DNA of 44,991 nt from Chloroflexota bacterium. Its GTDB lineage: Bacteria; Chloroflexota; Anaerolineae; Anaerolineales; Villigracilaceae. Position numbers and translations under genes: made by a program. This document shows, one piece after another, positions 11,666-44,975 of the stretch. The stretch lies in NCBI GenBank assembly GCA_013152325.1, contig JAADGN010000131.1:1-44991 (forward strand), in the 5' to 3' direction. The notes beneath the pieces were generated by a model that was not told the origin of the DNA, made no database searches, and saw only the letters and a list, made by a program, of their open reading frames with translations. Each line of letters starts with the position of its first letter. Position 1 is the first letter of the stretch.

Positions 11666-12040
11666 ATGGCTCGCAATTTTTTTATTTGGGGCGCGATTTT
11701 TGGCGGCCTGGCTGTGGCGACCGGCGCGTTTGGCGCGCACGGCCTGACCAGGATCGTCTCGCCTGAACGATTGATCACCTGGGAAAAGGCGGCCCGTTAC
11801 CAGATGTACCATGCGCTGGCGCTCTTGTTCGTCGCCTGGGCGTTGACCAATTGGCCGCAGCAGGCCCGGTACCTGACCATTGCCGGCTGGGCGTTCGTCA
11901 TTGGCATTTTCCTGTTCTCTTTCAGCCTGTACCTCCTGGCGGTGAGCGGGAAAACGTTTTTGGGCCTTGTTACGCCTTTCGGCGGCGTATCGATGGTCAT
12001 CGGTTGGTTTTATTTGATGTTGGCGGCCTGGAAATCATGA
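11666..12040 (+). CDS. DUF423-family small membrane protein
   Basis: The 124-residue protein has four predicted helices and the DUF423/YgdD pattern: an N-terminal GAIFGGLAVATGAFGAHGL, then KAARYQMYHALALL, and a C-terminal TPFGGVSMVIGWFYLMLAAW. Members are inner-membrane proteins of unknown role. The ATG at 11666 follows AAGGAGAAAGG and gives the expected family start; the longer upstream frame runs into the MITE-like element. The stop overlaps the next ATG (ATGA), indicating translational coupling. Confidence 0.9.
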   Translation: MARNFFIWGAIFGGLAVATGAFGAHGLTRIVSPERLITWEKAARYQMYHALALLFVAWALTNWPQQARYLTIAGWAFVIGIFLFSFSLYLLAVSGKTFLGLVTPFGGVSMVIGWFYLMLAAWKS

Positions 12041-12663
12041 AAACGAAAACACCCCTGCGCTGGTTCTTCGTTGTCCTGGTAGTTATCGCCCTGGTGGCGC
12101 TTTTCGGCCCGGAGGAAAAATCGCTCGGATCGAATGTGCGCATCGTCTACCTGCACGGGGCCTGGGTCATGGCGGCGGAAATAGCCTTCATCGCCGCGGC
12201 CATCGCCGGTCTGATCGGTCTGGTCGGCCGGCGCGCGGCCTTCCATAACTGGTCTGCCGCGCTGGGACGCACCGGCATCACCTTCTGGGTGACGTACCTG
12301 CCGCTCTCGCTGTGGGCCATGCAGGCCAACTGGAACGGACTCTTTTTGGCCGAGCCGCGCTTCCGCCTGGCGCTGACCTTCGCCGTCGTCGGCGTGCTGC
12401 TGCAAATCGGCCTGTGGCTGTTCAACATCCCCTGGTTGACCTCGCTGGCAAATATCGTCTACATTGTCGTGCTGCGGATCGCCTTCGCTGCGGCCTCCAA
12501 CGTCATGCACCCGCCGCCCTCGCCCATCTTCAGTTCGGGGCTGTGGGATGTCATCTTCTTTTTTGTGACGATGAATGTCCTGGCTCTGTCCGCGGCATAC
12601 TTCTTGACGCGCTGGTGGATTCGAGTCAGCGAATCAGCGGGTCAACGAACGCCGAATCGCTGA
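12037..12663 (+). CDS. Multi-pass membrane protein, remotely CcmC-like
   Basis: The 208-residue product has about six hydrophobic helices. Its second segment, NVRIVYLHGAWVMAAEIAF, is reminiscent of the RIxYxHVPxAW region of cytochrome c assembly proteins (CcmC/CcsA), but the tryptophan-rich WWD motif is absent and haem ligands are not clear. The assignment to that superfamily is therefore tentative. The start overlaps the stop of the DUF423 gene by 4 nt, so the two are probably translated together. The last codons (…TPNR, stop) are built from the first unit of the 8-bp repeat array that follows. Confidence 0.6.
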   Translation: MKTKTPLRWFFVVLVVIALVALFGPEEKSLGSNVRIVYLHGAWVMAAEIAFIAAAIAGLIGLVGRRAAFHNWSAALGRTGITFWVTYLPLSLWAMQANWNGLFLAEPRFRLALTFAVVGVLLQIGLWLFNIPWLTSLANIVYIVVLRIAFAAASNVMHPPPSPIFSSGLWDVIFFFVTMNVLALSAAYFLTRWWIRVSESAGQRTPNR

Positions 12664-12701
12664 ATCGCCGAATCGCTGATTCGCTGACTCGCTGAATCAA
12701 A
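12623..12701. repeat. 8-bp tandem array and 18-bp inverted repeat upstream of the four-helix gene
   Basis: Six consecutive octamers (GAATCGCT, GAATCGCC, GAATCGCT, GATTCGCT, GACTCGCT, GAATCAAA) run from 12654 to 12701. The sequence CGAGTCAGCGAATCAGCG at 12622-12639 is the exact reverse complement of 12674-12691, so RNA or single-stranded DNA could form an 18-bp hairpin. The array begins inside the preceding gene's stop codon. Confidence 0.85.
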
Positions 12702-12710
12702 GGAGACGCC

Positions 12711-13121
12711 TTGAATTACGAAGAGTGGGAAGCCAGTGTGTCCCAGCGCATCAAATCTGAGCCAATTTGGAAATTTGCCGGGTATCGTAAAGCATCATTT
12801 CTACACGACCTTGTCTGGCAGGATACTGAAGTTTGGATGAAAGATGGTCGCGGTCGGGTGCTTGCCAAGCAGATTATTCGTAGTTCGTCATCTACCCCTG
12901 CCAACCTCGAAGAAGGATTAGGACGAGGCTATGGCAAAGAATTGCTCTATCACTATCGTGTTGCGCTTGCCTCTGCACGTGAGACGAAGGGATGGTATTT
13001 TCGCGCCCGTCGTTACTTGACCGCAGAAACCCTTGAAGATCGTCTTGCCCTGATGGACGAAATCATAGCCCTGATCGTCACCGAAATTTCCTACCAGCGC
13101 AAGCGTCTCAAGAATCGCTGA
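12711..13121 (+). CDS. Four-helix-bundle protein (23S rRNA intervening-sequence protein / Avd-like)
   Basis: The 136-residue, strongly charged, helical product matches the four-helix-bundle family (TIGR02436 type): a variant of the first-helix motif ([15 protein letters not shown]), the conserved [10 protein letters not shown] and the later [19 protein letters not shown]. Relatives occur in 23S rRNA intervening sequences and as the Avd subunit of diversity-generating retroelements; neither context is present. The start is TTG, chosen because AAAGGAG lies 5 nt upstream at 12699-12705. The gene is visibly less GC-rich than its neighbours and is bracketed by 8-bp arrays of the same unit, so it looks inserted between the membrane-protein and MFS genes. 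Its function is unknown; other family members bind nucleic acid. Confidence 0.82.
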
Positions 13122-13183
13122 TCTGCTGACTCGCTGACTCGCCGAATCGCTGACTCGCTGAATCGATAAATCGATGAATCGCC
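13112..13183. repeat. 8-bp tandem array downstream of the four-helix gene
   Basis: Nine consecutive degenerate octamers of consensus GAMTCGCT, from GAATCGCT (13112) to GAATCGCC (13183). The first unit supplies the last codons and TGA stop of the four-helix gene; the last two supply the ATG and second codon of the MFS gene. It is the same unit as at 12654-12701. Confidence 0.88.
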
Positions 13184-14304
13184 TCATCCTCCTTTTTACC
13201 GCCATCCGCACGCTCTTCAATACCGCCTACCGGATGGCCTATCCTTTTCTGGGCGTCTTCGCACGCGGCCTGGGCGTGGATATCGAGACCATGTCCATTG
13301 CCCTGACCGCCCGCTCCGTTGTCGGCGGCATAACGCCCCTCCTGGCCCCCGTCGCGGACAATCGCGGCCGCAAATTTGGCATGCTCTTCGGGCTGGGCCT
13401 GTTCACCGTCAGCACAGCGCTGGTGGTCTTCTGGCCGACTTTCCTGGTGCTGACAATCTCGCTCGCGCTGACCACGCTGGGCAAATACATCTTCGACCCG
13501 GCCATGCAGGCCTATCTCGGCGACCGCGTGCCCTACACGCGGCGCGGACTGGTGATCGCCATTACCGAAGCGGGCTGGTCGATGGCCTTCATCTTTGGCG
13601 TTCCGCTGATGGGGTTCATCATCGCCCGCGGCGGCTGGATGGCTCCCTTCCCGCTGCTGACGCTGCTCGGCGGGCTGTTGTTCCTTGGCCTGTTCATCCT
13701 GCTCCCGAAAGATGCGCCGCCCGCGTCGGCCAACGGGCAATGGGACAACTTCCACACGGTGCTGACCTCCGTCCCCGCGCTGGCGGGACTCGCGGTCGGG
13801 TTTTGGGCCAGCACCGCCAACGAGGTCGTCAATCTCATCTTCGGCGTCTGGCTGGAAGATTCTTTCGGCTTGCAGATTGCGGCTCTGGGCGCTTCGGCGG
13901 CGGTGATCGGCCTCTCGGAGTTTGGCGGCGAGGGGTTGGTCGCGTTGTTCTCTGATAAACTTGGCAAAGAACGCGCCGTCGCGCTGGGGCTGGTCGCCAA
14001 CTCGCTGGCTGCGCTGCTGCTGCCCCTGCTCGCGCAAAGCGAGGTCGGCGCGCTGACGGGACTGTTCCTGTTCTACATCACCTTCGAATTTACGTTGGTC
14101 AGTTCCATTCCGATGATGACCGAAGTGCTGCCGTCCACGCGTGCCACGTTAATGGCGTTCAACGTTGCATCCCTTTCGCTGGGACGCGCCCTGGGCGCGC
14201 CGCTGGCGCCCTTCTTGTATAAGTTTGGCTTTCCTGTTGTGGCGCTGGGCGCCGTCGTCTTCAACGTTTGCGCGCTGTTTTCCTTGCGAAGGATGGAAAG
14301 ATGA
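13174..14304 (+). CDS. Major facilitator superfamily transporter
   Basis: The 376-residue protein has about 11-12 predicted helices. The MFS motif A region between helices 2 and 3 appears as APVADNRGRKFGML. It probably moves a small molecule across the cytoplasmic membrane by ion coupling; the substrate cannot be read from sequence. The ATG at 13174 lies inside the last units of the 8-bp array, with no Shine-Dalgarno motif in front. The stop overlaps the following ATG (ATGA at 14301-14304). The gene is GC-rich like the genomic background, unlike the four-helix gene just upstream. Confidence 0.85.
   Translation: MNRLILLFTAIRTLFNTAYRMAYPFLGVFARGLGVDIETMSIALTARSVVGGITPLLAPVADNRGRKFGMLFGLGLFTVSTALVVFWPTFLVLTISLALTTLGKYIFDPAMQAYLGDRVPYTRRGLVIAITEAGWSMAFIFGVPLMGFIIARGGWMAPFPLLTLLGGLLFLGLFILLPKDAPPASANGQWDNFHTVLTSVPALAGLAVGFWASTANEVVNLIFGVWLEDSFGLQIAALGASAAVIGLSEFGGEGLVALFSDKLGKERAVALGLVANSLAALLLPLLAQSEVGALTGLFLFYITFEFTLVSSIPMMTEVLPSTRATLMAFNVASLSLGRALGAPLAPFLYKFGFPVVALGAVVFNVCALFSLRRMER

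Positions 14305-41806: not shown

Positions 41807-44975
<3,169 letters not shown>

Follow-up and report, generated by a model that had tools for sequence, protein, structure and literature searches.

A probable mobile cassette with an IVP-family gene between inverted arrays of a short degenerate word in an intergenic region of a Chloroflexota genome

The 44,991-nucleotide stretch of a Chloroflexota genome analyzed here (contig JAADGN010000131.1 of assembly GCA_013152325.1, family Villigracilaceae; hereafter the window) carries a gene for a four-helix-bundle protein of the 23S rRNA IVP family (PF05635/TIGR02436) at positions 12711 to 13121 of the forward strand, with tandem octamers on either side. 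We conclude that gene and octamers together (12622 to 13183, forward strand, approximate limits) are probably an intergenic mobile cassette akin to the intervening sequences (IVSs) of rRNA genes, in which a single IVP-family gene lies between inverted arrays of a degenerate 7- to 8-nucleotide word and the arrays are part of the element. Comparable units with words of their own occur intergenically in many bacteria and once within a 23S rRNA gene, which suggests that rRNA “intervening sequences” are part of a far larger family of mobile elements, most of it unnoticed.

The degenerate octamer of the window cassette is GANTCGCY, with 5 full units and 1 partial unit upstream of the gene and 9 units downstream, in agreement with the six and nine octamers listed in the first-pass annotation of this DNA. 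Matches to the strict form GAMTCGCT number 3 upstream and 4 downstream, and the 45-kb window holds 11 of them compared to 4.1 expected. Among 68 units, positions 1, 2, 4, and 5 are at least 94% constant and the rest variable, though collecting these units by similarity to GAATCGCT slightly favors constancy. The downstream array (13112 to 13183, forward strand) reads GAATCGCT GATCTGCT GACTCGCT GACTCGCC GAATCGCT GACTCGCT GAATCGAT AAATCGAT GAATCGCC, and the upstream flank is bipartite, with an outer arm of reverse-complement octamers (CGAGTCAGCGAATCAGCGGGTCAACGA; 12622 to 12648, reverse strand) followed by forward inner units (GAATCGCT GAATCGCC GAATCGCT GATTCGCT GACTCGCT GAATCA; 12654 to 12699). 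The outer arm is complementary to the downstream array as well as to the inner units: 12622 to 12648 pairs at 85% with 13115 to 13141 and 13131 to 13157, which results in terminal inverted repeats around the open reading frame, and the 18-bp perfect inverted repeat reported earlier is present between 12622 to 12639 and 12674 to 12691. Period-8 identity peaks at 0.71 and 0.80 in the two flanks, and the minimum-energy RNA fold of the element pairs them with each other. As previously annotated, the stop codon of the upstream gene (12661 to 12663), the cassette gene’s own stop codon (13119 to 13121), and the start of the downstream gene (13174) all lie within repeat units, and the cassette gene is less GC-rich (49.6%) than its neighbors (61.9% and 62.7%). 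Its TTG start codon is preceded by a Shine-Dalgarno-like AAGGAG (12700 to 12705, forward strand, by direct reading), and its product has 136 amino acids.

PF05635 genes are abundant among relatives: the window’s genome has 7, and of 61 genomes from its family 56 carry them, with as many as 22 in one genome. Our main set comprised 103 such loci, nearly all from this bacterial family (the flanks of 36, then of 60 more, plus a few others), and most of these, like most of 16 plasmid loci described below, bear their own pair of 7- to 8-nucleotide arrays. The word matches between the two flanks of one cassette and follows the protein subfamily, and it differs by locus (CAGTTAT, GGTTGAA, CACGTTGA, GATAACCG, GAGTCGA, TCAGCNNT, and others). 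Upstream flanks match the reverse complement of their own downstream flank with a mean local score of 17.9, compared to 9.47 (standard deviation 0.33) for permuted partners, which reached no more than 10.96 in 10,000 permutations. Similarly, the median score of own inverted pairs is 17 versus 9 for equally spaced control segments beside the elements (p = 3e-29). The best period is 7/14 or 8 in 82 of the 103 loci, with no such period in controls, and array periodicity exceeds the 95th percentile of controls in 89.

The words are also coupled to the proteins. When loci at unrelated sites are compared in pairs, the mean word score rises with protein similarity from about 11 (below 0.4, where word similarity equals background) to 13.9 (0.5 to 0.6), 20.4 (0.6 to 0.8), and 30.5 (above 0.8), giving a Mantel statistic of 0.110 against a permuted standard deviation of 0.024; L004, L022, and L077 are examples of close protein relatives that share one word at different sites. 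Among 152 genomes of the family, 7 encode a focal-type protein (at least about 65% identical), and all of these have GANTCGCY arrays, compared to only 22 of the other 145 (Fisher p = 4.8e-6, uncorrected for relatedness). The suggestion in the first-pass annotation that a cassette might have entered a pre-existing array is not supported, as the arrays travel with the gene.

Arrays also occur by themselves, counted here for the focal word only. Two gene-less ones (L001 and L002) are found in the window’s own genome, and three relatives (L137, L147, and L148) have back-to-back inverted arrays at one identical junction, where the genes for a thiamine-transporter-like substrate-binding protein and a permease meet (thiB|thiP-like, names read from translations). 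Such arrays, which keep the word but lack the gene, resemble non-autonomous derivatives. All of these repeats might instead be ordinary microsatellites arising from polymerase slippage, with the gene a bystander inherited along with its neighbors; array length does vary among species (by one unit between L106 and L122), and some bacteria are rich in heptamer repeats (PMC4692102 and PMC4679880). However, slippage leaves unexplained why flanks separated by a gene should match in inverted orientation, why word and protein are coupled at unrelated sites, and why empty sites exist, and with the pairing and coupling data contradicting it we find this explanation hardly credible.

Occupied and empty versions of the same site can be compared directly at two junctions. 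In the window, the cassette lies between a membrane-protein gene (12037 to 12663, forward strand), whose final residues and stop codon are encoded by the array, and an MFS transporter gene (13174 to 14304, forward strand), whose start codon falls within the final array units. Most relatives are empty at this junction, with the two genes separated by a short spacer only, and it is filled only in the window’s genome, in G039, and in a few others. Homology of the upstream host protein to gene-less relatives stops near residues 195 to 208, before or at the array-coded residues. On a tree of the MFS protein the filled state requires at least 3 changes on well-supported branches, which repeated gain and ancient gain followed by losses fit alike. 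The first-pass annotation had proposed a search for empty sites and had named as its possible refutation an identical gene order in all relatives with diverged, non-repeat spacers; instead, most relatives lack the gene and the carriers keep the octamer type. Vertical inheritance with coincidental repeats is thus ruled out by the empty sites together with the word-matched flanks. L053, L054, and L056 have repeats of another type at this junction, longer tandem units of about 26 bp (CCCCGTCCGGGTACCGGGACTACCACG-like) where the MFS gene begins.

The second site is the junction of the pyruvate dehydrogenase E1beta and E2 genes, followed through 30 loci of one genus, where inserts lie after the E1beta stop codon and before the Shine-Dalgarno sequence of E2. 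Seven loci carry a type-A cassette (CAACYACC), 8 a type-B cassette (ACTGNTNA), 12 have no intact gene (several of these hold a hairpin array with a different word and no gene), and 3 have other neighbors; a tree of these loci requires 15 state changes. L233, which holds a type-B cassette, and its sister L230, which holds a gene-less hairpin, share 97.9% identity on the upstream side of the junction and 94.1% on the downstream side, but their inserts differ. L225 is the deletion scar of a type-A cassette, of which the 3′ gene end and its array remain; L236 has this type intact. Gene-less hairpins at L237, L238, L241 to L243, L246, and L250 read ACCACAAAGG.../...CCTTTGTGGT or similar, with a period of about 9 to 10. 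These junction states could alternatively result from homologous recombination of operon alleles between species, with cassettes that are no longer mobile. The re-use of a few junctions (E1beta|E2, membrane protein|MFS, and the 3′ side of a 3-hydroxyacyl-CoA dehydrogenase-like gene) would suit such exchange, as would the final E1beta residues, which differ right at the L233/L230 junction. Yet the flanks of this sister pair are 94 to 98% identical nearly up to the junction, meaning that any exchanged piece must have been very short, and close protein relatives with one word occupy different sites (L004, L022, and L077) and plasmids, cas operons, and an rRNA gene hold copies as well. We consider allele exchange unlikely. 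Empty sites, alternative occupants in close relatives, and the matching words of flanks at unrelated sites together support the mobile cassette proposed in the first-pass annotation.

The focal protein as a query gave no match on plasmids, but other PF05635 subfamilies did. Plasmid genes of Cyanobacteria, Azospirillum, Gemmatirosa, and Treponema mostly come with matched arrays (16 loci, mainly of Cyanobacteria), with an own inverted score of 21.8 versus 12.5 and none of 20,000 permutations as high. Insertions on plasmids split cas6|cas4, cas10|cmr3, and two ribonucleotide reductase genes; in cyanobacterial plasmids, the IVP gene of L217 lies in cas6|cas4 and that of L219 in cas10|cmr3. A figure of novel associations in a CRISPR survey includes 23S rRNA IVP (PMC10910872), and insertion of this kind might explain the entry. 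More generally, gene-neighborhood statistics can mislead, and cassette insertion is one possible reason.

One plasmid copy, L220 of Azospirillum, sits inside a 23S rRNA gene (RF02541, 2558 bits) and ends in 7-nucleotide arrays of the same kind; it is the only locus so located, and the window element does not lie in a 23S rRNA gene. With the 23S rRNA IVSs of Coxiella, Leptospira, and others, the window cassette shares the protein family and fold, terminal inverted repeats, and an open reading frame in the loop. The Coxiella IVS has tandem heptamers (GACAGAT) before its reading frame, in strain-variable copy number, as well as terminal inverted repeats (PMC4990558). In contrast to these IVSs, the window cassette and nearly all others lie between protein-coding genes, use many different words, and occur in several copies per genome and with gene-less derivatives. 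By protein and anatomy the window cassette is of the 23S rRNA IVS kind, but it lacks the defining location and is a variant rather than a member. The origin of rRNA IVSs has been called unclear (PMC4990558). Given a 23S copy of like anatomy, the classical rRNA IVSs fit as the special case of such elements that landed in rRNA, and L220 strengthens the link to them that the first-pass annotation had drawn through the protein family.

With neighbor orientation scored by a codon-usage model for 78 loci, both neighbors are in sense in 68, only the downstream one is reversed in 9, only the upstream one in 1, and none of the loci is antisense to both (orthologues among them are not independent). The 14 annotated plasmid loci are in sense to both neighbors in 10 cases and antisense to both in 4. 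This sense bias may reflect selection or an RNA-level step, and it makes read-through likely as the default mode of expression: the gene would probably have no promoter of its own and be expressed from the host operon. The same placement between tandem genes could indicate an RNA-processing or regulatory module, in which RNase III cuts the transcribed array stem and uncouples the operon genes, the protein regulates, and spread is a by-product of occasional recombination. RNase III does excise rRNA IVSs at their terminal stem (PMC4990558), and a functional stem would predict the conserved pairing of flanks. Nevertheless, presence is patchy even among sister species, the host operons are unrelated, arrays also occur gene-less and within coding regions, and some cyanobacterial copies are antisense to both neighbors; we regard such a module as rather doubtful, though the least unlikely of the alternatives.

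The protein of the window matches the PF05635 and TIGR02436 profiles well above their cut-offs (51.1 bits versus 33.8 and 59.8 versus 24). Its AlphaFold model (pLDDT 94) is closest to 2rld and 2gsc, solved S23/IVP members with five chains in each entry, and next to Avd of a diversity-generating retroelement (4dwl, TM 0.66/0.80), as expected from its first assignment as an IVP/Avd-like four-helix bundle. The 2gsc protein, Xcc0516 of Xanthomonas campestris, belongs to the IVP family and is described as a homopentamer (PMC4990558). Profile searches of the cassette gene found no transposase domain. Avd is a pentamer and has a nucleic-acid-related role. It and the window’s protein have in common the four-helix bundle and the same fold (PMC10053308), and the systems differ in that the window’s genome is without a reverse transcriptase (RT).

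This absence bears on the possibility that the protein is an Avd-like partner of RT and that the cassette moves, or its arrays are rewritten, by a host RT in trans, be it of the diversity-generating or the group II type. Besides the likeness to Avd, the sense-strand bias would suit insertion at the RNA level, and RTs are encoded in 34 of 61 related genomes. On the other hand, RT (PF00078) was not found in the window’s assembly, which is 92% complete and holds 7 copies, nor in G004 and G052, which hold 22 and 15, and cassette copy number is alike with or without RT (means of 5.8 and 5.4, p = 0.32). RT as a required partner is rejected in view of these genomes and the lack of correlation, and the link to RT that the first-pass annotation had raised is not supported; action of a host RT in trans appears very unlikely. 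Y1 transposases are possible helpers of the cassettes, but their presence in 60 of 61 genomes renders them uninformative as a correlated partner.

In RAYT systems, short inverted repeats lie on both sides of a chromosomal gene, and pairs of them without the gene occur elsewhere. Similar to REPIN/RAYT, the cassettes combine a flanked gene with dispersed gene-less arrays of the same sequence (L001 and L002; paired in L137, L147, and L148). However, the cassette protein is a four-helix bundle and not a Y1 HUH transposase, with Y1 proteins encoded elsewhere in the genome, and the repeats are tandem 7- to 8-nucleotide words instead of 20- to 40-bp palindromes. By analogy, the cassette may work somewhat like REPIN/RAYT minus the Y1 protein. 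We envisage that each subunit of the pentameric protein would probably bind one array unit. Single-stranded or hairpin nucleic acid seems the likelier target because a period of 7 to 8 nucleotides does not match the helical turn of DNA and would suit neighboring proteins on a single face of B-DNA poorly. The arrays would serve as cis-acting ends for the protein and host enzymes when a cassette is inserted, exchanged, or lost, and arrays that share the word but have no gene could be mobilized or maintained in trans, like REPINs by RAYTs.

Several observations weigh against the interpretation as mobile cassettes with inverted arrays. Transposition was not seen, and the cassette ends are approximate, as the MFS proteins of the nearest empty sites share only about 70% identity with that of the window; no target duplication was found between ends too diverged for such a comparison. 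Known catalytic motifs are absent from the protein, and the cassette is not accompanied by a recombinase. Array periodicity does not exceed its control in 14 of the 103 loci, and only 55 of 103 surpass the 99th percentile of the inverted-pair control. GANTCGCY arrays also occur in some genomes without a focal-type gene, which weakens the coupling, though it fits gene loss or incomplete assemblies. Folded as RNA, the window element is not more stable than dinucleotide shuffles (z −0.39), and none of our conclusions draws on this fold. Finally, the arrays of L209 and L217 are direct and not inverted, as are the inner upstream units of the window cassette; since the upstream array of relatives is mainly the reverse complement of the downstream one, we take the basic arrangement to be inverted.

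A broader proposal, which we put forward tentatively, is that of a widespread class of prokaryotic mobile elements with a single gene, the product of which is a pentameric four-helix-bundle ring that reads tandem 7- to 8-nucleotide words, each subunit taking one unit. Protein and word would co-evolve as many private pairs, and the ring would mobilize or maintain arrays with or without the gene by means of host DNA enzymes, the element having neither a transposase nor an RT; rRNA IVSs and the orphan heptamers of Xanthomonas, Nostoc, and Beggiatoaceae would be products of such elements. The mobile-cassette reading connects three separate matters: rRNA IVSs, the heptamer arrays of multiple phyla, and chromosomal “four helix bundle” or “S23 ribosomal protein” genes that have no assigned role. 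Passages of two earlier papers describe abundant heptamer arrays in several phyla and assign no function to them (PMC4679880 and PMC4692102), namely TAACTGA in Beggiatoaceae, Cyanobacteria, and Bacteroidetes in the former and GGGAATC in Xanthomonas and GGGGA(C/T)T in Nostoc in the latter. The orphan arrays share period and intergenic location with the cassettes and have a similar pattern of constant and variable positions, and TAACTGA is the word of type-B cassettes (ATAACTGATAACTG), but the same passages draw no link to an IVP-family gene. The array of L123 (GGGAATCGGGGGTCGGAAATTGGGAATT) resembles the GGGAATC heptamers as given there for Xanthomonas. By analogy, Xcc0516 would be predicted to be flanked by GGGAATC-like arrays. 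A term search of open-access full texts, with subscription papers and preprints outside its scope, turned up no account of IVP cassettes that lie between genes and carry word-matched arrays.

GANTC is the recognition sequence of CcrM and HinfI. The constant core of the focal octamer is this same palindromic GANTC, possibly by coincidence because the words of other cassettes are unrelated. Elsewhere in the window the only periodic match is weak, with period 7, at 44680 to 44750 (GCCCGTTGCCCGTTGCCCGTCGTCCGTCGTC); it is a gene-less array inside an open reading frame (42888 to 44975) that reads as an NAD-dependent DNA ligase, where it encodes linker residues ahead of the last domain. The E2 linker downstream of the cassette in L046 and L224 reads SQLPITNLQSPITNH and looks array-encoded as well; from these sequences, arrays may be a source of interdomain linkers in proteins. 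In L140 (1495 to 2616), inverted GANTCGCY arrays surround a 1-kb insert that has a HEAT/DNA-alkylation-repair-like gene and no four-helix-bundle gene, and the ends of this insert resemble integron attC sites (TTAGGCGGC...GCCGCCTAAC).
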